From IMG/VR virus record IMGVR_UViG_3300022752_003934, positions 1 to 26,551 of that record: 26,551 nt of DNA, one strand, 5' to 3'. The DNA is from a virus. The notes beneath the pieces were generated by a model, which was not told the DNA's origin, did no database searches, and was given only the letters and a program-made list of their open reading frames with translations. The position numbers and the translations under genes are program-made. Shown here in pieces: positions 7,419 through 23,246 of this stretch (position 1 is the stretch's first letter; each line of letters begins with the position of its first letter).

Positions 7419-8644
7419 TATGAGAGAACTCCCCAAAAATCAATGAACACTTTATTGGATGTATCAAGAGAAGCAAATGCTCTATTAGGATGCATAATAA
7501 TAATTACATCAGACTTATCTACACACTGCTGTGCAGAATCACATTTAATTACAAAATCCAATAGACCATTTAGATTATCATATGTTTGTGGAAGTTCATC
7601 ATAAACAAAAACTCCAACTCCTTGGTTGGTGAGTTTTTCAATCAACTTAACTGAAGGAGATCCTATAGTGACTGGAGATGCTGGTTTAAAAGATACACCA
7701 AGAATACCAACATTCTTGTATCCACTACATTTTCTCAACAAATCCTCATGAAGACTTTCATTTACTTCGTCAGCAAATTTCAAATGCTTTGCTTCTTTAC
7801 CTCTGTTCTCTGCAAATTTAATAAAGGCAGAAGTATCTCTTGGGAAACACGTGCCACCATAAGGAGTCCCATAACCAAAGAAGTATGGTGAAATTCTTTT
7901 ATCCAAACCTATAGTTTCAGTAATGTTATGGACATTTACATTATCTATACCATCACAAAGTTGACCTAGGAAATTTGCAAATGTAATCTTATTAACAATA
8001 AATGCATTCAAAGCGACCTTAGCAATCTCCGCCTCTTCCAATGAAAGAATTTTTTTAGGGGGATTATTGGTATGAAACTTAGACCAAATAGTTTGTGTTT
8101 GAGAAATATCCCGACTATTATTGGATCCAATCAAGAAAAATTCAGGATTTAAAAAGTCTTTAATGACATTACCAAGTTTTACAAAATCTGGAACATATGA
8201 AAATCCAAATCCCCGACCATACTTTCTACCAGAAATTTTTTCAACTAAGTGGATCAACTTGTTAATTGTTCCAGGAAGAACTGTCGATGAAAGAACAATC
8301 AAATGATAGTCTTTTTTACTTCTTTTTAAATTAACAGACAAATCTGTGAGAGCAGACTCGACAAACTCTGCAGAATATCCACTATCTCCAAGTTGGGTAT
8401 TCACTAGAATGATTGATGCTTCTGTTTCTTCTACAGCTCTGGCATATGAATCTGTAAATCCAATAAAGTTTTCATGAGGAAAGATATCAGACAATCCTGG
8501 TTCATAAAAAGGAAGTTCTTGATTGTTTAACTTCTCAAGAATGTATTCATTTTTATCTACACCCAGGATTTTATTTCCACTCTTTGCCAAACAGCAAGCA
8601 AGAGGTAATCCTAGTTTTCCAAGTCCAATAAAACTAACATTCAT
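7418..8644 (-). CDS. UDP-glucose/GDP-mannose 6-dehydrogenase family
   Basis: NAD-dependent four-electron oxidation of a nucleotide hexose to the uronic acid. N-terminal Rossmann site SFIGLGKLGLPLA, the middle domain with EEAEIAKVALNAFIVNK (Lys209, Asn213, Lys219) and the catalytic Cys266 in TPYGGTCFPRD, the GGxCxPxD signature. C-terminal domain with GVSFKPASPVTIGSPS, a variant of the usual GxxFKxxTxDxRxS, so substrate recognition may differ from standard UDP-glucose dehydrogenase. 408 residues. If it makes UDP-glucuronate or a similar uronic acid, the adjacent CapK-like adenylating enzyme could act on its carboxyl group, which is inference. Joined by ATGA upstream and TAATG downstream. Confidence 0.9.
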   Translation of the reverse strand: MNVSFIGLGKLGLPLACCLAKSGNKILGVDKNEYILEKLNNQELPFYEPGLSDIFPHENFIGFTDSYARAVEETEASIILVNTQLGDSGYSAEFVESALTDLSVNLKRSKKDYHLIVLSSTVLPGTINKLIHLVEKISGRKYGRGFGFSYVPDFVKLGNVIKDFLNPEFFLIGSNNSRDISQTQTIWSKFHTNNPPKKILSLEEAEIAKVALNAFIVNKITFANFLGQLCDGIDNVNVHNITETIGLDKRISPYFFGYGTPYGGTCFPRDTSAFIKFAENRGKEAKHLKFADEVNESLHEDLLRKCSGYKNVGILGVSFKPASPVTIGSPSVKLIEKLTNQGVGVFVYDELPQTYDNLNGLLDFVIKCDSAQQCVDKSDVIIIMHPNRAFASLDTSNKVFIDFWGVLS

Positions 8645-9975
8645 ACCTTAACCTCATTAATGATGCTTCTAATTTTGTTTGTTTTTAGATCTCTTTTTAT
8701 TTCATCAACTCGATTGATTGTATAATTCATTTCACCCAGGCGAGAAGATAATCCCTTTATTATATCACTTTTTATATCATCACCGCAATCAGAATTTTGA
8801 ACATAGTTGAAAACAATGTCTTTCTCGGATTTCTGAATAATCTGAAACATTTTAATTGCTGGCATTTTTTTATCAATCCAACTATAAAAATTAACACCAG
8901 GCAATCTTGATCCACTAGCAGAGACTAAAATATCACTACTTCGCCCATTAATTTCTTTAACTACACCATTCTCTAAAACAAAAGTATCCTCTGTCTGATA
9001 ACGAATGAATGGCATGTAATAGTTTAAAAAACCAGTGGCAATCAATCCAAAAGTTCCATCTCCATTATCATAAAATTCATCAACACCATATTCGTAGTTT
9101 TGTTTATAATCTCTAGATTCTTCGGTCTGGTGCATGAAGGATACCTTTTCCATTTGACCATAATGACCACACGGAACAATACCCAAAGTTTCAACTACTT
9201 TATCATACCACTGATTCAACATTTTTTCTGAGGTGACATGAATCTTTTTTACATTGTTTAAACGCAAATTGTTTTCTTCACATAAACAGGAAAGAATGTA
9301 AGCAGACGATGGATACGTGCATATTGTTTGATAATTGCCAGAATTAATCTTATTAATATACAGTTTAATTGTTTGAGAATTCAAATGATAAGCAGACATG
9401 TATAAACGTTTGAGTTCATGATCGTAATACCACAGGGGTGAATCACTATCTTTTGGAACATAACGCCTCAACCAAACACTAGGAGTATCATACAATTTAG
9501 CACCTTGCTCAAGGTATGCTCTCATATTAAAGGCAGCTTCTTTTTTAAGAGTATCATCATCCACAAAAAACTCTAGTTTATCGCCACTAGATCCACTTGT
9601 TGTAATTGGGTATGCTCGATCAAGTTTTCTATTATCAGCAATTAAACGATCACGATTTTCAATAATAATTTTTTTAGTTAAGACTGGAAAATTTTTTAAG
9701 TCTTCAACTGTTTTAAAATCTCTTGGATCCCATTTATTTTCAATAAAAATATCTCTATAGTACGGAACATTTTCATAGCAATATAATAACAAAGATTTTA
9801 ATTCCATCAATTGATAGAACTTTCTTTCTTCTTCATTCCACTCAGAAGTATAAAGCAAAAAATCAAGTGTTTCCTTATACACTTTCCCATACCTCTTATG
9901 AAAAGGTACAAGATTGTAATAGGACCACTTGATAAAGTTGGGTGATTTTTTAACAATTTTATTAACACTTCCCAT
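8641..9975 (-). CDS. CapK-like adenylating enzyme (phenylacetate-CoA ligase family)
   Basis: Member of the CapK/PaaK/F390-synthetase group of the ANL superfamily, common in capsule and O-antigen loci. Visible are YENVPYYRDIF near the start, the phosphate loop TTSGSSGDK at about 125-133, HYGQMEK at the A5-like region, and NYYMPFIRYQTEDTFVL with the A7-like Asp. These enzymes activate a carboxylate as acyl-AMP; the substrate in sugar clusters is mostly unproven. The ATG at 9975 is preferred (GAGGA about 8 bases upstream) over an in-frame GTG at 9990, and gives a 14-base overlap with the HAD gene. 444 residues. Confidence 0.85.
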   Translation of the reverse strand: MGSVNKIVKKSPNFIKWSYYNLVPFHKRYGKVYKETLDFLLYTSEWNEEERKFYQLMELKSLLLYCYENVPYYRDIFIENKWDPRDFKTVEDLKNFPVLTKKIIIENRDRLIADNRKLDRAYPITTSGSSGDKLEFFVDDDTLKKEAAFNMRAYLEQGAKLYDTPSVWLRRYVPKDSDSPLWYYDHELKRLYMSAYHLNSQTIKLYINKINSGNYQTICTYPSSAYILSCLCEENNLRLNNVKKIHVTSEKMLNQWYDKVVETLGIVPCGHYGQMEKVSFMHQTEESRDYKQNYEYGVDEFYDNGDGTFGLIATGFLNYYMPFIRYQTEDTFVLENGVVKEINGRSSDILVSASGSRLPGVNFYSWIDKKMPAIKMFQIIQKSEKDIVFNYVQNSDCGDDIKSDIIKGLSSRLGEMNYTINRVDEIKRDLKTNKIRSIINEVKV

Positions 9976-10282
9976 TAAAAAAATCCTCACTATTTACTGC
10001 CTTATCATCAATATAATAATCTGCCGCATATTTTACACCAGTTCTTAATGTATGGAATTTCAGACCCCAAGAACGAAGTTGATCGAAAGTTTTTTCATAG
10101 TGATTAATTTTCGAATTACAACCTCTAGCAGTCTCAATAATAATTGTATGTCCTTCTTCCCAAAGTTGATTCACTTTTTGAATTCTATCATGATAAGGAA
10201 TAGCTTCAAAATATTTCCAATTATTATTTTCTCCCCTTTCAATATTACAAAGAGTGTGATCTAAATCAAAAACATAAATCAT
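9962..10282 (-). CDS. Small HAD-superfamily phosphatase
   Basis: Only 106 residues but with all HAD loops: FDLDHTLC with nucleophile Asp6 and Asp8 (DxDxT), Thr51 in ETARG, Lys84 in TGVKYAADYYIDDKA and the acidic pair Asp92/Asp93 for Mg. No cap domain, so a small phosphorylated sugar or amino-alcohol is a reasonable substrate. Such minimal HAD proteins are regularly found in capsule clusters beside aminotransferases and nucleotidyl enzymes. Overlaps the GT10 gene (ATGA) and the CapK-like gene (14 bases). Confidence 0.85.
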   Translation of the reverse strand: MIYVFDLDHTLCNIERGENNNWKYFEAIPYHDRIQKVNQLWEEGHTIIIETARGCNSKINHYEKTFDQLRSWGLKFHTLRTGVKYAADYYIDDKAVNSEDFFNGKC

Positions 10283-11136: not shown

Positions 11137-11868
11137 CTAATTACAATAGATCCAATTTGAATTTCTATAGACTAAATTTATTGCTCTATAATATGTATTT
11201 TCTTCTTCAGACTGTCTTTTTTCATACATGTACATTTTATTATTGCAATACTTATCAATAAGATAGCAAATAGAAGTCTCTACAGTGTGAATTTCTGAAG
11301 CGTTTTCTAAGGCAGAAATCCAATCAAAAATATGAAATCCATTCTTTTTATCTTCGTCAATATTCATTACATGAACTTTAACATCTGAATCGACTTCTGG
11401 AGTAATATTTCGGTCTTTAGAATCTGTTCCAAAAGATTTATTAACTAGTACATAATCTCCATATAAGTTATAAGTATTAATTAATTTTTCTTCTCTTTGA
11501 TAATTCCTAATTAACTTAAAATGTTTTCTATAATCAGAAATGGGAATAGAAAGAAAATAATACTTAGATATCATTACAGGGCATTTTGGCAAATACCTAT
11601 CAGCGTATCCTACAGGAATATACAACTCATTCTCAGTCTGATGGAAATTAGGGTTTCCGTAGTATTGTTTTAAAGGGAAGTTATCAGACTCTTTCACCCA
11701 GATTAAATTTTTCTTTTTAATGTATTGGGATACAATATCATAATAAACAGATCCAACAGGATAATATACAACATACCCCTCAGATATCATTACATCTACA
11801 ATTGGTTGAATCCAAATAATATCACCCAATCCAAGGGGTTGATAGATTAAACAAGTTTTATTCTGCAT
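11137..11868 (-). CDS. Putative GT-B-fold glycosyltransferase, GT9/heptosyltransferase-like
   Basis: Weakly recognised. The N-terminus NKTCLIYQPLGLGDIIWIQP has the G-x-GD-hydrophobic pattern of ADP-heptose:LPS heptosyltransferases, in which the Asp is catalytic. The C-terminal part WISALENASEIHTVETSICYL resembles the region of GT-B enzymes that binds the nucleotide sugar (an alternating 'observe/time' helix with a TS/ETS loop). At 243 residues it is well short of ordinary GT9 (about 320-350). The start overlaps the end of the SDR gene by 11 bases. Could also be a degenerate GT41-like protein; function unproven. Confidence 0.6.
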   Translation of the reverse strand: MQNKTCLIYQPLGLGDIIWIQPIVDVMISEGYVVYYPVGSVYYDIVSQYIKKKNLIWVKESDNFPLKQYYGNPNFHQTENELYIPVGYADRYLPKCPVMISKYYFLSIPISDYRKHFKLIRNYQREEKLINTYNLYGDYVLVNKSFGTDSKDRNITPEVDSDVKVHVMNIDEDKKNGFHIFDWISALENASEIHTVETSICYLIDKYCNNKMYMYEKRQSEEENTYYRAINLVYRNSNWIYCN

Positions 11869-12679
11869 GATTTAAATAATGCTGATAACATTTTTTAATT
11901 GAAGTTTCAAGACCATCAAGATTCAAATCCAATTTAGAAAGTTCATATCCAGATGCAGAATAAGATTTTTCATATCCCGATTCAAAAATATCAATAGGCA
12001 CTTTATAATCAGATAAATTATTAATCATTGCTGCAACTTCAGAAAGATAATAACTTTCAGAGTATACAAGATTAAGTTCTTTAGGCAAATTTTTATCTCC
12101 AGAAAGGTACAAATCTACAACCTTTTTGGTATCATCGATTCCAAAAAAATCCATTAATCGATCTTTAAAGATAACAATTTCTTTTTTGTTAATATAGTTT
12201 CTAATATTAGCAGTGGTGAACATATCCTTTGGAGATTCTGGACCGAAGACATTGAAGAATCTCAGATTGTAAACATGCCTCATTTGACGAGAACGATATG
12301 TAATCAAATATTTTGACAAACCATAGTAATCATCAGGAATAACCTTTCCAAAATCTTTTTCATCTACTTTAGCGATATCTCTTTTTCTCCCATAAGAAGC
12401 ACCGCTACAAAAATTAATCATGGGAATTGCTTGAGATGCTAAACACTCAAACATGATTAGATTATTATAAAAATCCTCAGGAAGATCTTGACGCACTCTA
12501 CGACCCCCACGGATAGCAGAGTGTATAATAAAATCAAATTCTCTATTACGAAAAAATTGATTTACATTTTCAATACTGGAATAATTAACGTCATAATATT
12601 GAACATCATGATTCTCTTTGAGATATGGAATAAGTTCTCTACCAAGAGTTCCTTTATGTCCAGTAAACAAAATTCTCAT
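11858..12679 (-). CDS. Extended SDR, possible GDP-fucose/colitose synthase-like reductase
   Basis: NAD(P)-binding MRILFTGHKGTLGREL (GxxGxxG) and catalytic Tyr119-x3-Lys123 in DDYYGLSKYL, with Ser in NFCSGASYG. The run IIHSAIRGGRRVRQDLPEDF followed by a dense helix is reminiscent of GDP-L-fucose synthase (WcaG) and the related ColC, which act right after Gmd or ColD, but the match is loose and the protein (273 residues) is shorter. It could supply the missing 3,5-epimerase/4-reductase step of the GDP-sugar branch; equally it may be an RmlD-like or unrelated sugar reductase. Overlaps the transketolase-like gene by ATGA. Confidence 0.78.
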   Translation of the reverse strand: MRILFTGHKGTLGRELIPYLKENHDVQYYDVNYSSIENVNQFFRNREFDFIIHSAIRGGRRVRQDLPEDFYNNLIMFECLASQAIPMINFCSGASYGRKRDIAKVDEKDFGKVIPDDYYGLSKYLITYRSRQMRHVYNLRFFNVFGPESPKDMFTTANIRNYINKKEIVIFKDRLMDFFGIDDTKKVVDLYLSGDKNLPKELNLVYSESYYLSEVAAMINNLSDYKVPIDIFESGYEKSYSASGYELSKLDLNLDGLETSIKKCYQHYLNHAE

Positions 12680-13146
12680 CGTCTAAGATTAATATAAGAT
12701 GGTTTATCCGAATAAAGAAATTTTTTAATGTCAACTTCTTCTGCAGACTGTGGATGGTACACTTCAATGTTTGGGAGTGCCTTTAAGACTTGCAAATCTT
12801 CACAGGCATAATGACTGAATCCACAAGGACCATAATCATCATTGCGTCCACTACCTACAAGTTTAACAGGAATCTGTTCATAATGCAAGTAATTACGGAT
12901 AAACTCAAATGGGCGATAGAGAACAAAAGGTGTAATTGAATAGCAGACAGGAATTTTTCCTTCTAAAGCAAATCCAACTCCCATGCCAATCATAAGTTGT
13001 TCTGCAGCACCTGGATTAATAACTCTTTGGGGAAACTCATCACGAAGATGATCAAAAACTTTATATCCAACATCACCAACTAAGAGAACAATATTATCAT
13101 TTGCTCTCATTTCTTCAGTAAGAAGTTCTTGAAATCTTCTTCTCAT
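12676..13146 (-). CDS. Transketolase-like protein, pyrimidine-binding subunit
   Basis: Second half of a split TPP-dependent transketolase. NPGAAEQLMIGMGVGFALEG carries the GxAEQ motif whose Glu49 activates the TPP aminopyrimidine ring, then SITPFVLYRPFEFIRN and GFSHYACEDLQVLKALPNIEV, matching the Pyr domain. The protein stops at 156 residues, right after this domain (SDKPSYINLRR), so the usual C-terminal domain of about 130 residues is absent. The genes for both halves overlap (ATGA) in order PP domain then Pyr domain. In sugar clusters split transketolases transfer two- or three-carbon ketol units, but which sugar is built here is unknown. Confidence 0.88.
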   Translation of the reverse strand: MRRRFQELLTEEMRANDNIVLLVGDVGYKVFDHLRDEFPQRVINPGAAEQLMIGMGVGFALEGKIPVCYSITPFVLYRPFEFIRNYLHYEQIPVKLVGSGRNDDYGPCGFSHYACEDLQVLKALPNIEVYHPQSAEEVDIKKFLYSDKPSYINLRR

Positions 13147-13760
13147 AACGATCCAACTGCCTCCAGATATTGTTGTTCTGTAAAATTTGTATAGTGAGCA
13201 TCTAATCCAGAAAGACCAAAACTCTCTACAGTTGTTCTGACAAAATTTACCTCTGGATTAAAGGCTTTGATTCGGGTTTCCAAATAATCCAAATCAACTG
13301 CATCATATGCCGCCCAACCATTTGCATTCACATAGATTTTCAAATTATCAACTTTGTTTTCATGTGAAAACCTAAGTGCTTCCCAAATAGATCCTTCAGC
13401 ACATTCTCCATCAGAAATCATACAATATACATTGCGATTAGGATTAGCAAGTGCTCTCCCAACAGCGACAGTAATTCCCATACCAAGACTTCCAGTTGAA
13501 CAATAAATTTTGTCCAACTCGTTTCTTTTAGGATGCTCACCATACTTATCCAATAACTCTTGTGCATTCAAACCGTAATACTCTTCAAGTATTACATACA
13601 GTGCAACAACAGCATGTCCATTAGAAAGAATGAAAATATCATCTTCATTCATTTCACTGTAAATTTGATTTAAAATTTCTAAGCAAGAAAAATAACTTCC
13701 TAAATGGTGAAGTTTATTTTCATAACAAATGTCAAGTAATCTACGATAAAGTTTTTTCAT
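13143..13760 (-). CDS. Transketolase-like protein, TPP diphosphate-binding subunit
   Basis: First half of the split transketolase. LHHLGSYFSCLEILNQIY and DDIFILSNGHAVVALY match the N-terminal substrate/TPP region, TGSLGMGITVAVG the conserved SLG-G loop, and SDGECAEGSIWEALRFS followed by NAN the TPP/Mg motif (GDGExxEGxxWEA...N-x-N; here SDG instead of GDG, Asn at about 145 and 147). It has 205 residues against about 270-280 for typical N-subunits, so both halves are trimmed. The ATG at 13760 overlaps the preceding TGA (TGATG); the frame extends one codon further to a TTG. Confidence 0.9.
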   Translation of the reverse strand: MKKLYRRLLDICYENKLHHLGSYFSCLEILNQIYSEMNEDDIFILSNGHAVVALYVILEEYYGLNAQELLDKYGEHPKRNELDKIYCSTGSLGMGITVAVGRALANPNRNVYCMISDGECAEGSIWEALRFSHENKVDNLKIYVNANGWAAYDAVDLDYLETRIKAFNPEVNFVRTTVESFGLSGLDAHYTNFTEQQYLEAVGSL

Positions 13761-14470
13761 CAATAAACTAACATACTATCAAATTGAAGTTTTTCTACTG
13801 TTCTTCCCCAAGCCTTAAACTGGTCCTGGATCTTATTAAAATTATAACTCATTTTACCAAGATCTTCATAATCATGCACCTCAACATAGATCGCATCTAC
13901 TTTTGAAACTGCATCTTCAAATGAAGGTTCAAAGACAACTTCATTCTCAAATCCTTCAATATCCATTTTAACAAAACCAACTTTTGAATCAAGATTCAAA
14001 GAGTCAATATAACTATTCAAAGTTTGAGTTTTTACTTTTACAATCTTTCCACTATGAGGATCAGTCCTGTGTTGGACAAAAGAATTCATAGTAGAATTTC
14101 TTTCATGAATATGAAAATCACATTCCCCATCTTCCAGTCCAATTGCAACCTGATGGGTTTCTATATTTTGTTTTTGAGTTAAAGAAATAACTTCGTTCAA
14201 TAATTCAAAATGAGAAGGAGTTGGTTCAACTGCAAAAATTTTCTCAGCAATAGGAGAAACATACAGAGAGAATAAACCAACATTTGCACCCAAATCAATG
14301 ATATTGAGTTCTTCCTGACCACGAAGGAAGTAATAAAAATCATTATTAAATTGATCGATTATAGCAATCGTGCAAGAATGCTCTGCAAGTGCATGTTGCT
14401 TATAATTTTCGGATGAAGAAAGGTCTATGATATTTCCAGAAATATCAGCAAATTTAAGAACGTCAGTCAT
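13760..14470 (-). CDS. FkbM-family methyltransferase
   Basis: SAM-dependent methyltransferase of the FkbM type, which O-methylates sugars or polyketides. SAM loop NIIDLGANVGLFSLYVS, then IFAVEPTPSHFELL (acidic ribose contact) and GFVKMDIEGFENEVV, the MDIEGxE signature of FkbM. C-terminal VDAIYVEVHDYEDL also fits. 236 residues, full length. Such enzymes commonly cap or decorate LPS/O-antigen sugars, which could alter receptor recognition by other phages (inference). Coupled by ATGA to the GT8-like gene upstream and TGATG to the transketolase downstream. Confidence 0.9.
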   Translation of the reverse strand: MTDVLKFADISGNIIDLSSSENYKQHALAEHSCTIAIIDQFNNDFYYFLRGQEELNIIDLGANVGLFSLYVSPIAEKIFAVEPTPSHFELLNEVISLTQKQNIETHQVAIGLEDGECDFHIHERNSTMNSFVQHRTDPHSGKIVKVKTQTLNSYIDSLNLDSKVGFVKMDIEGFENEVVFEPSFEDAVSKVDAIYVEVHDYEDLGKMSYNFNKIQDQFKAWGRTVEKLQFDSMLVY

Positions 14471-20100: not shown

Positions 20101-20128
20101 ATTATACACCCATCAGGGTGATAAGTCT
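20101..20128 (-). promoter_or_regulatory. Possible weak internal promoter before gme
   Basis: Minus-strand TATAAT at 20106-20101 overlapping the stop of the ColD-like gene, but the position for a -35 (GACTTA) is poor. A small hairpin CACCC/GGGTG lies between. Listed because this 35-base gap is one of few in the operon. Confidence 0.25.
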
Positions 20129-21259
20129 ATCGATCTGGCGCTTTGTCACAAATTGACTATTGCCGACATATAAACCGTTATTATGTAGAATAGAAACATT
20201 AGACACTTCTTTGTTAGTGCAAAGTTTATATTTCTTAAATGCAGGATGTAAAAGCAGATTACCACTAATAATAGGGCGATATTCAATACCATTTGCCTTC
20301 AATTCCTTTTTCAACTCTACACAAGCAGATTGATCTTTTGAAATTATAGGAAAAGAAAAACTACTATTACCTTTTTGATATTCTGGAATTAAATAGTCCT
20401 CTGACTTATAAATTTGATCCCACCAATATTTGAAATTTTCTCTACGAATATTAATATTCTTATCCAGTTTTTTAATCTGTGATAGTCCAAGTACAGCACA
20501 AACTTCATGATTACGGAAGTTATATCCATCAGTCATGAACAGAAACGCTGGATCAATATTGGGATTTTGCTTTTTATAAGTTTCGAAAACTTCTTTAGAT
20601 GCTTCACGTGCCATGCCATGACTACGCTTCATTCTCATTAACTCATAAAGTTCGGTATTGTTTGTACAAACAACTCCCCCTTCAATTGTCGTAATATGGT
20701 GTCCAAAATAAAAACTAAAAGTAGATCCTACACAATCAACTCCACGTTTTTTGCCATTGGAATCTTCAACGCCATGTGATTCACAAACGTCTTCTAAAAT
20801 AAGAGCATTGGGAAAAATTTCACGAACTTTTTCTACATTTGATGAAAGACCAATCAGGTGTGTAATAAACACTGCCTTAATATCTGGATGTTGGGTAACA
20901 ATGTACTTTAATTGCTCTTCATCAAAAGAAAAGTTTTTTAGATTAATATCACAAAAAATTGGTTTAAGACCTGACTGAAAAATAGGAGCGACATTAGTCA
21001 TCCAAGTCGTTGCAGGAACTAGAACCTTATCATTATTCTTCAACTTATAAAGTTCCTTCACTGCAGAAACTAAAAGTGAATTTGCAGTAGATCCACTAGA
21101 AACATACAAAGAGTGTTTAACACCTAACCACTCAGACCACACTCTTTCAAACTCACGAACCTTAGGTCCATTAGTCAGTCTGCTGCTTGTTAGAATGAAA
21201 GCAGCCATTTTAATACGATCTTTTAAAGTAATCGTATCTTTCATTAAAGGCCAATACAT
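20102..21259 (-). CDS. ColD-like GDP-4-keto-6-deoxymannose 3-dehydratase
   Basis: DegT/DnrJ/EryC1-fold protein in which the PLP lysine is replaced by histidine: SFYFGHHITTIEGG with His188 where sugar aminotransferases have Lys. That substitution, at the same residue number, marks ColD of E. coli, which with PMP and glutamate removes the C3 hydroxyl from GDP-4-keto-6-deoxymannose on the way to colitose. Other landmarks: YVSSGSTANSLLV (phosphate cup), LILEDVCESHGVE with the pyridine Asp157, MRMKRSHGMAREA, and FMTDGYNFRNHEVCAVLG. 385 residues against about 388 for ColD. gmd, which makes its substrate, is 16 bases upstream. Shine-Dalgarno GGGAGAAG. Alternative: a PMP dehydratase for a related NDP-ketosugar such as RfbH, but the size and lack of an iron-sulfur cysteine set favour ColD. 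Confidence 0.88.
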   Translation of the reverse strand: MYWPLMKDTITLKDRIKMAAFILTSSRLTNGPKVREFERVWSEWLGVKHSLYVSSGSTANSLLVSAVKELYKLKNNDKVLVPATTWMTNVAPIFQSGLKPIFCDINLKNFSFDEEQLKYIVTQHPDIKAVFITHLIGLSSNVEKVREIFPNALILEDVCESHGVEDSNGKKRGVDCVGSTFSFYFGHHITTIEGGVVCTNNTELYELMRMKRSHGMAREASKEVFETYKKQNPNIDPAFLFMTDGYNFRNHEVCAVLGLSQIKKLDKNINIRRENFKYWWDQIYKSEDYLIPEYQKGNSSFSFPIISKDQSACVELKKELKANGIEYRPIISGNLLLHPAFKKYKLCTNKEVSNVSILHNNGLYVGNSQFVTKRQIDRLITLMGV

Positions 21260-21275: not shown

Positions 21276-22283
21276 TTAAAATTTTATTTCATTCAGACAC
21301 ATATCTCGAACCAACTCATCAAATGAGATCTTTGGTTCCCATCCAAGTTTATTTCTTGCCTTAGAAGAATCACCAACAAGAGTGTCAACTTCAGAAGGTC
21401 TGAAATACTTATCACTCACACGAATTATAACCTGATCACTATTGGTGTCAATGCCAATCTCATCAAGACCTTCTCCTTGCCACTCAATATTCATTCCAAA
21501 ATAAGGAGCACACTTTTCAACAAACTCACGCACTGAGTGTTGTTCTTCAGTAGCAATAACATAATCATCTGGTTCTTCTTGCTGAAGCATTAACCACATT
21601 GCATCAACAAAATCCTTAGCATGACCCCAATCACGCTTAGCATTCAAATTACCCAAAGGAAGATAATCTAAAAGACCTGCTTTAACTTTTGACAGACCAA
21701 TTGAAATTTTACGAGTCACAAAAGTTTCACCACGACGAGGAGACTCGTGATTAAATAAAATGCCAGAACTCGCATGAATACCCATCGATTCTCTATAATT
21801 TTTGGTGATCCAATGACCATAAAGTTTTGCTACACCATAGGGTGAGCGTGGATAAAATGGGGTGGTTTCTCTTTGAGGAATCTCTTGAACCATACCAAAC
21901 ATTTCCGAAGTAGATGCCTGATAAAAACGTACATCTTTCTCCATGCCAAGAATACAAAGACTATGAAGAATTCTCACAGCACCCAATGCATCTACTTCAG
22001 CAGTATATGCAGGCATTTGGAAAGAAACTTTCACGTGGCTTTGTGCCGCAAGATTATAAATCTCAGTTGGTTCTACTTCCTGAATAACATGCAGAATATT
22101 TGTAGAATCTGTTAAATCTGCATGATGGAGAACAACGTCTTGGGAAAGATGATCAATCCTGGCATTATTGATAGTAGAACTTCTCCTAATTGTTCCATGA
22201 ACTTCGTATCCCTTACTCAGGAGGAGTTCAGCAAGATACGAACCGTCTTGCCCCGTTATTCCAGTTATTAAAGCTCTTTTCAT
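21276..22283 (-). CDS. gmd: GDP-mannose 4,6-dehydratase
   Basis: Extended SDR that makes GDP-4-keto-6-deoxymannose, precursor of fucose, colitose, rhamnose and perosamine. [15 protein letters not shown] (NADP loop), [39 protein letters not shown] with the catalytic Ser126/Glu127 pair, and Tyr149-x3-Lys153 in [12 protein letters not shown]; then [17 protein letters not shown] and [20 protein letters not shown], all diagnostic of Gmd. 335 residues, full length. No clear Shine-Dalgarno; a promoter candidate lies just upstream. The product most likely feeds the adjacent ColD-like enzyme. Confidence 0.96.
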
Positions 22284-22307: not shown

Positions 22308-22336
22308 ATTCTAACACATAAGATTTTATTGGTCAA
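22308..22336 (-). promoter_or_regulatory. Internal sigma70-type promoter before gmd
   Basis: Minus-strand TTGACC (22336-22331), 17 bases, TAGAAT (22313-22308), 10 of 12 consensus bases. The -35 lies in the last codons of rmlB. Predicted start is near 22301, 18 bases before the gmd ATG. Would allow the gmd, ColD-like and gme genes extra transcription. Confidence 0.5.
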
Positions 22337-23246
22337 GATAATACTTGATTGTTTTATCGAGACCAAATTCAAGATCAAATCGAGGAGACCAACCAATCTC
22401 ATTTTCAATTTTTGAAATATCTGTCGAATACCTACGATCATGACCTGGACGATCTTTAACAAACTCAATAAGATTTTCGTCTTTACCCATAAGATTTATA
22501 ATCTTTTTAAGAAGGTCAATATTTTTAATTTCATATTCACCTCCAATATTATATTTTTGACCTACCTTACCTTTAAACCAAATTTCTATTAATGCTTCAC
22601 AATGATCCTGAACATATAACCAATCTCTAATTTGTTTTCCATCACCATAAATTGGAACTTTTTTATTATTCTTAAGGTTGTTGATTATAGTTGGAATTAA
22701 TTTTTCAGTATGTTGTCTAGGACCATAATTATTAGAACAATTTGTAATTATTGCAGGAAGACCATGTGTATTATGGTATGCCATTACAAAGTGATCAGAT
22801 GCTGCCTTTGATGCAGAGTATGGATTTTGTGGAGAATAGTTTGAGTTCTCTGTGAAATATCCATCGTTAATAGATCCATAAACTTCATCTGTAGAAATAT
22901 GAATAAACTTTTGAACTTCGTATTTCAAAGAAAGATTTAAAAGATTAACTGTTCCATTAATATTTGTATGAATGAATTCTCTACAATCTTTAATTGAATT
23001 ATCTACATGACTTTCTGCAGCAAAGTGAAAGACAGTAGATGGTTTATGTTTTTTAAAGACAAACTCACAATTATGTTCGTCTACAATATCAGTAGTATAT
23101 AACTTTACACTATCTGGAATATTATCAGGATCAGCAGCATATGTTAATTTATCAATACAAATTACCTCTTCATTTGTACAAGTAATCAAATGTTCTAGAA
23201 AATTACTCCCAATAAACCCAGCGCCACCAGTAACTAAAACAGTCAT
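22326..23246 (-). CDS. rmlB: dTDP-glucose 4,6-dehydratase
   Basis: Makes dTDP-4-keto-6-deoxyglucose, the branch point to rhamnose, fucosamine, quinovosamine and others. VTGGAGFIGSNF (NAD), DKLTYAAD, HFAAESHVDNSI, ISTDEVYG with Thr119/Asp120/Glu121 and Tyr143-x3-Lys147 in NPYSASKAASD; then NNYGPRQHTEKLIP and GDGKQIRDWLYVQDHCEA. At 306 residues it is shorter than typical RmlB (about 340-355), mostly by a trimmed N-terminal domain between strands, but all catalytic residues are present. Overlaps rmlA by ATGA. rmlC and rmlD homologues are not evident in the window. Confidence 0.95.
   Translation of the reverse strand: MTVLVTGGAGFIGSNFLEHLITCTNEEVICIDKLTYAADPDNIPDSVKLYTTDIVDEHNCEFVFKKHKPSTVFHFAAESHVDNSIKDCREFIHTNINGTVNLLNLSLKYEVQKFIHISTDEVYGSINDGYFTENSNYSPQNPYSASKAASDHFVMAYHNTHGLPAIITNCSNNYGPRQHTEKLIPTIINNLKNNKKVPIYGDGKQIRDWLYVQDHCEALIEIWFKGKVGQKYNIGGEYEIKNIDLLKKIINLMGKDENLIEFVKDRPGHDRRYSTDISKIENEIGWSPRFDLEFGLDKTIKYYLDQ

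Follow-up and report, generated by a model that had tools for sequence, protein, structure and literature searches.

A predicted transketolase-type enzyme without the C-terminal domain, encoded by a two-gene pair in a cyanophage sugar gene island and in related phages and bacteria

Two short adjoining genes in a virus record raise the question of whether a transketolase can be reduced to a pair of small subunits and still be a complete enzyme, and what such an enzyme would make in a phage. The stretch of DNA analyzed (here called the window) is a 26,551-base IMG/VR record of a marine virus, with its cyanophage origin taken from a psbA gene at one end that matches those of Synechococcus T4-like phages at ~79-84%. 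A minus-strand island of sugar and glycosyltransferase genes sits between psbA and a group of nucleotide-sugar genes. The original prediction of a 361-residue, two-subunit transketolase at positions 12676 to 13760 held, with minus-strand open reading frames for a PP subunit (N-terminal, diphosphate/Mg-binding; 13143 to 13760, 205 amino acids from an ATG) and a Pyr subunit (12676 to 13146, 156 amino acids), each assigned by Pfam, AlphaFold2, and fold matching. The two genes share a 4-nucleotide overlap, and a TTG one codon ahead of the ATG at 13760 gives a PP frame of 206 amino acids (13143 to 13763). Directly upstream, an FkbM-type methyltransferase gene (13760 to 14470, minus strand; PF05050, 1e-11) overlaps the PP start, and on the other side the start of an SDR gene (NAD-dependent epimerase/dehydratase fold; 11858 to 12679, minus strand, 273 amino acids; PF01370, 4.2e-16) overlaps the Pyr stop by 4 nucleotides. 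Because of these successive overlaps, the genes look translationally coupled. The SDR is proposed to be the partner reductase or epimerase of the pair.

Other minus-strand genes of the window encode a small HAD-type phosphatase-like protein (9962 to 10282; PHROG 1238, 9.3e-22), a DegT-fold protein of the ColD/RfbH sugar 3-dehydratase type (20102 to 21259; NF011936 RfbH, 4.4e-56, below that model's cut-off), a GDP-mannose 4,6-dehydratase (Gmd; 21276 to 22283; TIGR01472, 524 bits against a cut-off of 415), and a dTDP-glucose 4,6-dehydratase (RmlB; 22326 to 23246; TIGR01181, 413 bits against a cut-off of 365). A histidine replaces the PLP lysine in the DegT-fold protein, which we take to be the mark of a ColD/RfbH-type 3-dehydratase, and Gmd is a possible source of an NDP-4-keto-6-deoxy sugar. 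Elsewhere in the window, neither Pfam nor PHROG gave a match at E 0.01 for a 449-residue protein (8641 to 9990); judged by eye, it presumably resembles PaaK/CapK-type adenylate-forming enzymes.

Both subunits fall among transketolases by sequence and by predicted fold. Pyr matched Transket_pyr (PF02779) at 1.4e-19 (70.9 bits, cut-off 27) and PP matched Transketolase_N (PF00456) at 1.1e-9 (38.2 bits, cut-off 22); given these E values, and the same architecture in 93 distinct loci, the assignment is more than chance. AlphaFold2 models were confident (pLDDT of 92.1 for PP and 86.5 for Pyr, in which residues 106 to 112 fall under 50). Of the chains that were re-aligned, the closest to the PP model was 6yak, the split transketolase of Carboxydothermus (Z 23.3, rmsd 2.0 Å, 206 aligned), and the closest to the Pyr model was DXS (Z 21.6, rmsd 1.8, 154 aligned), with 6yaj at Z 20.2 (rmsd 2.0 Å, 149 aligned), in a fold comparison that does not itself rule out families and leaves room for folds absent from the listing. 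Homology holds for both subunits at the sequence level too.

The Pyr frame had been predicted to end right after its domain, and the subunit indeed ends at the arginine that aligns with R520 of E. coli TktA, with the SDR gene overlapping the stop and therefore leaving no room for an in-frame tail or C-terminal extension. A Pfam search of the pair gave no match to Transketolase_C (PF02780), the TKC domain. Truncation by sequencing error or decay was rejected because the same kind of stop recurs across 93 loci together with the overlap of the next gene. A hidden third subunit supplying the domain was likewise rejected, as far as fragments allow. Among virus records, which are fragments, PF02780 was missing from the window's own (0 of 1) and from the related ones (0 of 37 at E≤1), and the search detected 14 of 14 controls. 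In the 12 cellular genomes with a trimmed pair, no stand-alone PF02780 was found; all 32 matches lay in frames of at least 311 amino acids and are therefore parts of larger proteins. The absent domain and a shortened PP subunit might instead point to a decaying or inactive remnant. Most viral members shown are missing a ~28-residue segment of PP, which is kept by the Patescibacteria pairs and one viral pair (L033). However, the same architecture and invariant catalytic residues persist in 93 loci down to ~50% identity, and a remnant is hardly credible.

Residue positions were mapped onto E. coli TktA, in which R358, S385, H461, and R520 bind phosphate, across the 93 distinct loci (Pyr in 93, PP in 91). 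In the window, S117-D118-G119...N148 and E49 correspond to TktA G154-D155-G156...N185 and E411, placing the predicted TPP motif (SDG...N) and catalytic glutamate at D155, N185, and E411. Across loci, the predicted TPP/Mg set was complete (E411 in 93/93, D155 and N185 each in 91/91), F437, D381, and H473 were kept in all 93, and H26, H66, H100, and H261 were kept in all 91. The motif read SDG rather than GDG in 91 of 91, and Y440 was kept in 87 of 93, with Phe in the other 6. A D...N metal motif in PP, a catalytic Glu in Pyr, and invariant catalytic histidines are all features of the transketolase type, as is the gene order, PP before Pyr in 91 of 93 loci, the other two being cut by contig ends. 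With a TPP site complete by sequence and two confident models of transketolase-type fold, the pair is predicted to be a complete transketolase-type TPP enzyme minus the TKC domain. By our own estimate it is very probably active as some form of TPP-dependent carbon-carbon transferase, and PP and Pyr probably assemble as an alpha2beta2 tetramer.

Changes on the substrate side show, at the sequence level, that the canonical sugar-phosphate pocket has been remodeled, with H461, S385, and D469 altered and R101 new. The phosphate-binding set is only partly retained: R358 was kept in 92/93 and R520 in 87/93 (Lys in 6), S385 was replaced by Gly, Lys, Arg, or Tyr in 92/93, and H461 was Gly in 93/93. 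D469 was retained in only 24/93, and H258 of TktA was not kept in trimmed pairs. Among aligned rows, Gly occupied position 461 in 45/45 full-length sugar-cluster relatives, 42/42 viral-type rows, and 4/4 Patescibacteria rows; the residue was Ala in 8/8 Bacteroidota-phylum rows and His in 3/3 ordinary transketolases. R101, which adjoins the lost H461, was present in 42/42 viral-type rows, 3/4 Patescibacteria rows, and 0/45 full-length relatives.

These residues also bear on an acyloin-type TPP enzyme, which would decarboxylate a 2-keto acid and couple it to a sugar, like YerE or enzymes of the 2-oxoacid dehydrogenase type. Decarboxylase-type models matched PP weakly, the replacement of D469 in most members is compatible with such chemistry, and the analogous branching from pyruvate by YerE is described in PMC12247030. 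Transketolases, however, were the best sequence matches of both subunits, and the transketolase histidines H26, H66, H100, H261, and H473 are invariant, making an acyloin-type enzyme improbable.

Similarly trimmed pairs, whose existence in glycan clusters had been raised as a check on the original prediction, turned up in 93 distinct loci, many with nucleotide-sugar neighbors. These comprise 84 viral loci, the window, and 8 loci from genome contigs; a 94-locus set used for one tally includes the duplicates L086 (= L031) and L103 (= L032). A single-protein Pyr scan alone found 37 IMG/VR loci at 50-98% identity, with PP present in 36, the remaining locus (L016) starting inside the operon, and an alignment-based scan found relatives in at least 267 (Pyr) and at least 386 (PP) IMG/VR contigs. 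Pyr was 149 to 184 amino acids long in all 93 loci, and PP was found in 91 of 93 at 197 to 252 amino acids (the shortest cut by a contig end), both misses (L016 and L123) starting near contig ends. The 4-nucleotide PP/Pyr overlap was present in 15 of 15 loci inspected, and the trimmed pair also occurs on viral contigs of 220 to 357 kb.

A tblastn search of 50,697 phage records, from which very near records were possibly left out, found no match in an isolated cyanophage. It gave Pyr matches at 26-35% identity in 12 records and PP matches at 30-36% in 15, mostly on unannotated gut or Listeria-labeled contigs that may be bacterial, and among plasmids (372 records) the best was 38.6%. In cells, trimmed pairs were found in 3 of 239 genomes of a Patescibacteria MAG's phylum (the centre itself, G038, plus G146 and G266), in a second named MAG (L045), and in 8 of 395 genomes of a Flavobacteriaceae MAG's phylum, excluding the centre's own virus-type contig. 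Of 398 genomes in an Alphaproteobacteria MAG's phylum, 31 had a match at E≤1e-30, all listed matches lying in open frames of at least 306 amino acids except that of the centre, G309, which lies on the contig of L044 and is probably viral. Alongside the trimmed pair, two Patescibacteria-type genomes encode an ordinary Pyr subunit whose frame spans 319 to 333 amino acids. Virus-type copies also appear on short contigs in archaeal and bacterial MAGs (L039 to L041, L043, L044, and L046), probably because contigs of viruses were binned there.

When 104 Pyr domains were placed in a maximum-likelihood tree, all 54 C-domain-less rows grouped as a single clade (94/98; 94% of bootstrap trees) that excluded the full-length rows; E. 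coli TktA and L220 were on long branches whose exact place is unsure. The 49 full-length split rows keep 132 to 162 residues past the Pyr domain. Within the clade, Bacteroidota-phylum rows were sister to Patescibacteria plus viruses (100/99), and the latter two were partly interleaved, indicating that genes probably moved between them. According to PMC7661550, ordinary transketolases, DXS, and PDH have the TKC domain in common, making loss the simpler reading. The tree indicates that the domain was lost once, and the trimmed pair is today distributed across phages and a small number of bacterial groups.

The trimmed clan groups with sugar-cluster relatives and apart from ordinary transketolases, and this placement bears on the idea that the pair is an ordinary transketolase which, as other carbon-metabolism genes of cyanophages do, raises flux through the pentose-phosphate pathway or Calvin cycle of the infected host. 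A photosynthetic host and psbA in the window would suit that role, but the loss of H461 and S385, the position of the pair inside a sugar/glycosyltransferase island, and its occurrence in many other gene settings add to the tree in making it very unlikely.

Gene neighborhoods vary with lineage. Among 34 loci of full-length cellular relatives, a set that includes two outside the clan or at its edge (L215 and L220), rfbF and rfbG occurred in the retrieved region in 12, rfbH in 6, and a related SDR in 8, by author-set score thresholds. One such operon (L399) has the order rfbF-rfbG-PP-Pyr-SDR-rfbH and by analogy looks like the yersiniose route with a transketolase replacing YerE. The window SDR matches the SDR beside the full-length split transketolase in L211 and L399 (blastp 2.6e-28), and on a Paenibacillus plasmid an SDR is fused to a transketolase PP subunit beside rfbF/rfbG (L218, 6097 to 8004). 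In 76 of the 84 viral loci, a gene of the SDR cluster sat no more than three genes from Pyr; this cluster is broad, and some of its Pyr-adjoining members are 4,6-dehydratase-like. A 4,6-dehydratase motif lay within the same distance in 40 of 84 viral loci, compared with 22.5 ± 3.2 for open reading frames drawn at random from these loci (0 of 2,000 draws as high), and in 23 of 38 representatives compared with 12.6 ± 2.5 (0 of 2,000), although this control is weak because loci were centered on Pyr.

His-type DegT genes gave a weak signal under the same control, with 17 of 84 loci compared with 10.8 ± 2.0 (3 of 2,000 draws as high) and 9 of 38 representatives compared with 5.7 (63 of 2,000). In control viral Gmd loci without a transketolase (L221 to L300), 41 of 44 DegT genes were His-type too, so this gene was dropped as a specific marker of the transketolase substrate and kept as a possible supplier. 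Viral contigs lacking the transketolase commonly pair Gmd with a His-type (ColD/RfbH-like) 3-dehydratase. In 39 of 94 loci, PP was closely preceded by an FkbM-cluster gene; the 94 include two duplicates, and the tally leaves out L120, whose PP and Pyr frames overlap.

The loss of H461, the SDR shared with the rfbFGH operon, the SDR-PP fusion, and the 4,6-dehydratase enrichment together favor two-carbon transfer to a nucleotide 4-keto sugar. Split-gene transketolases have been proposed, so far without proof, to move hydroxyacetyl onto keto sugars (PMC12247030). In the scheme we infer, a ketose phosphate or hydroxypyruvate would donate a two-carbon ketol unit, which PP/Pyr would attach at the keto group of an NDP-4-keto-6-deoxy(-3-deoxy) hexose. 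Gmd/RmlB would supply this hexose, either alone or together with the His-type 3-dehydratase. The adjoining SDR would then reduce or epimerize the product to a C4-branched sugar, and phage glycosyltransferases would attach it to a glycan. This branching of a nucleotide 4-keto sugar is the best reading of the data, with a chance just short of even. Several results count against it: the window Gmd and 3-dehydratase are 7 to 10 kb away from the pair, a DegT match is absent from 32 of 58 transketolase records (some >90 kb), 13 of 84 viral loci have neither a 4,6-dehydratase nor an HldE-like context within the flanks covered, the random control is weak, and other viral loci have HldE-like neighbors instead.

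Those HldE-like neighbors favor a heptose-type route, together with clusters of the Bacteroidota phylum. Here the product of the trimmed transketolase would be sedoheptulose 7-phosphate or a variant of this ketose phosphate. Isomerization, phosphorylation at C1, dephosphorylation, and nucleotidylation would follow to give an NDP-heptose-like sugar, and the SDR would serve as final epimerase. In 21 of the 84 viral loci, an HldE-like kinase and nucleotidyltransferase lie no more than three genes from Pyr, usually without a nearby 4,6-dehydratase, in the order PP-Pyr-SDR-rfaE2-rfaE1-HAD-cupin; 3 of 84 loci contain, at any position, rfaE1 along with a 4,6-dehydratase or a His-type DegT. Cellular trimmed loci lie near a GmhA-like isomerase in 6 of 11 cases and an HldE-like protein in 7 of 11, all in the Bacteroidota phylum. 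The mostly kept R358 and R520 and a weak match of the window SDR to a heptose epimerase model (2.4e-9) point the same way. Against this route, H461 is lost in all 93 loci and S385 is replaced, a GmhA-type isomerase (SIS) was found in just 1 of 58 transketolase records, leaving the canonical ADP-heptose pathway incomplete, and the window gene list, on a cyanophage branch without HldE-like genes, contains none. Hosts also already produce sedoheptulose 7-phosphate. The heptose-type route is a serious rival, though on balance unlikely. As a putative product, either a branched sugar or an unusual ketose, as first suggested for the pair, fits the neighboring genes.

Further arrangements were seen among these loci. 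In ~20 viral loci (L008 and L011 to L030; for example, L021) a compact SDR-rfaE2-rfaE1-HAD-cupin operon follows the trimmed transketolase, with HldE split into two small genes (~130 and ~250 amino acids). In a viral branch comprising L031, L108, and L118, a small PfkB-type kinase (~224 amino acids) and a KdsC-like HAD lie near the pair, with a nucleotidyltransferase-like gene also present in L031 and L108. One bacterial cluster (L393; G1010 contig C19) contains both forms, ~10 kb apart: the full-length split transketolase has an RfbH-like gene nearby, and the trimmed one has GmhA-like and HldE-like genes.

Split transketolases are already known, as are TPP enzymes with two domains and TPP enzymes that branch sugars. 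Searches of open-licence literature found no description of a C-domain-less transketolase or of this viral family; within that literature, a once-derived clan of this kind in phages appears not to have been described. The fullest account we entertain is tentative, and less probable than the branching chemistry taken by itself: a once-evolved TKC-less clan with a complete TPP site carrying SDG, retuned to a nucleotide-sugar ketone and present in hundreds of phages, would make a branched sugar that remodels the host or virion glycan during infection. Extra domains of TPP enzymes, TKC among them, are in many cases of obscure function according to PMC2831816, and a natural, conserved TKC-less enzyme of transketolase type makes the need for TKC directly testable. 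Ketone-accepting transketolases have been proposed but none characterized in vitro, with the 13 listed all coming from streptomycetes (PMC12247030); the clan adds many ketone-acceptor candidates from phages and bacteria that are small enough for engineering. The loci also suggest that phages encode whole rare-sugar pathways. Pelagimyophages carry LPS-type genes including rfaE, often in host-recognition regions, according to PMC7029224, in which the word "transketolase" is absent.

Among known systems, sulfopyruvate decarboxylase (ComDE) has two small PP/Pyr-only subunits of similar total length (a beta model of 182 positions). The suggestion that the pair is among the smallest TPP enzymes of its type therefore stands among transketolases and fails as an absolute record, since these subunits are as small. 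ComDE is of another lineage: no match of the window proteins to its NCBIfam equivalog was listed, and the sole, weak match was to a Patescibacteria PP (23.4 bits against a cut-off of 221.5). YerE, the yersiniose branching enzyme of LPS clusters, likewise depends on TPP and adds its branch to a deoxy keto sugar (PMC12247030), but it is a pyruvate-using member of the decarboxylase family with another domain order, whereas the trimmed pair is transketolase-like with PP before Pyr; neither the decarboxylase-family sequence nor that domain order was found in the window pair. E. coli TktA has all the TPP/Mg residues and H26, H66, H100, H261, and H473 in common with trimmed pairs, but it is a single chain of 663 amino acids with a linker and TKC, and its H461, S385, and H258 are lost in them. 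The split transketolase of Carboxydothermus hydrogenoformans (6yak and 6yaj) has separate PP and Pyr chains of the same folds as the window pair, at 309 and 341 amino acids compared with 361 in all here, and the window pair differs in having SDG for GDG and Gly for H461. According to PMC7661550, that enzyme is an alpha2beta2 assembly that binds TPP between chains and keeps the TKC domain. Split-gene transketolases are also proposed for miharamycin and amipurimycin, their own chemistry being unproven (PMC12247030). The nearest full-length relatives are the split transketolases of sugar clusters (rfbFGH-type LPS clusters), which have the change of H461 to Gly and the NDP-sugar and SDR neighbors in common with the trimmed pair but keep the 132 to 162 residues after the Pyr domain that the trimmed pair has lost.
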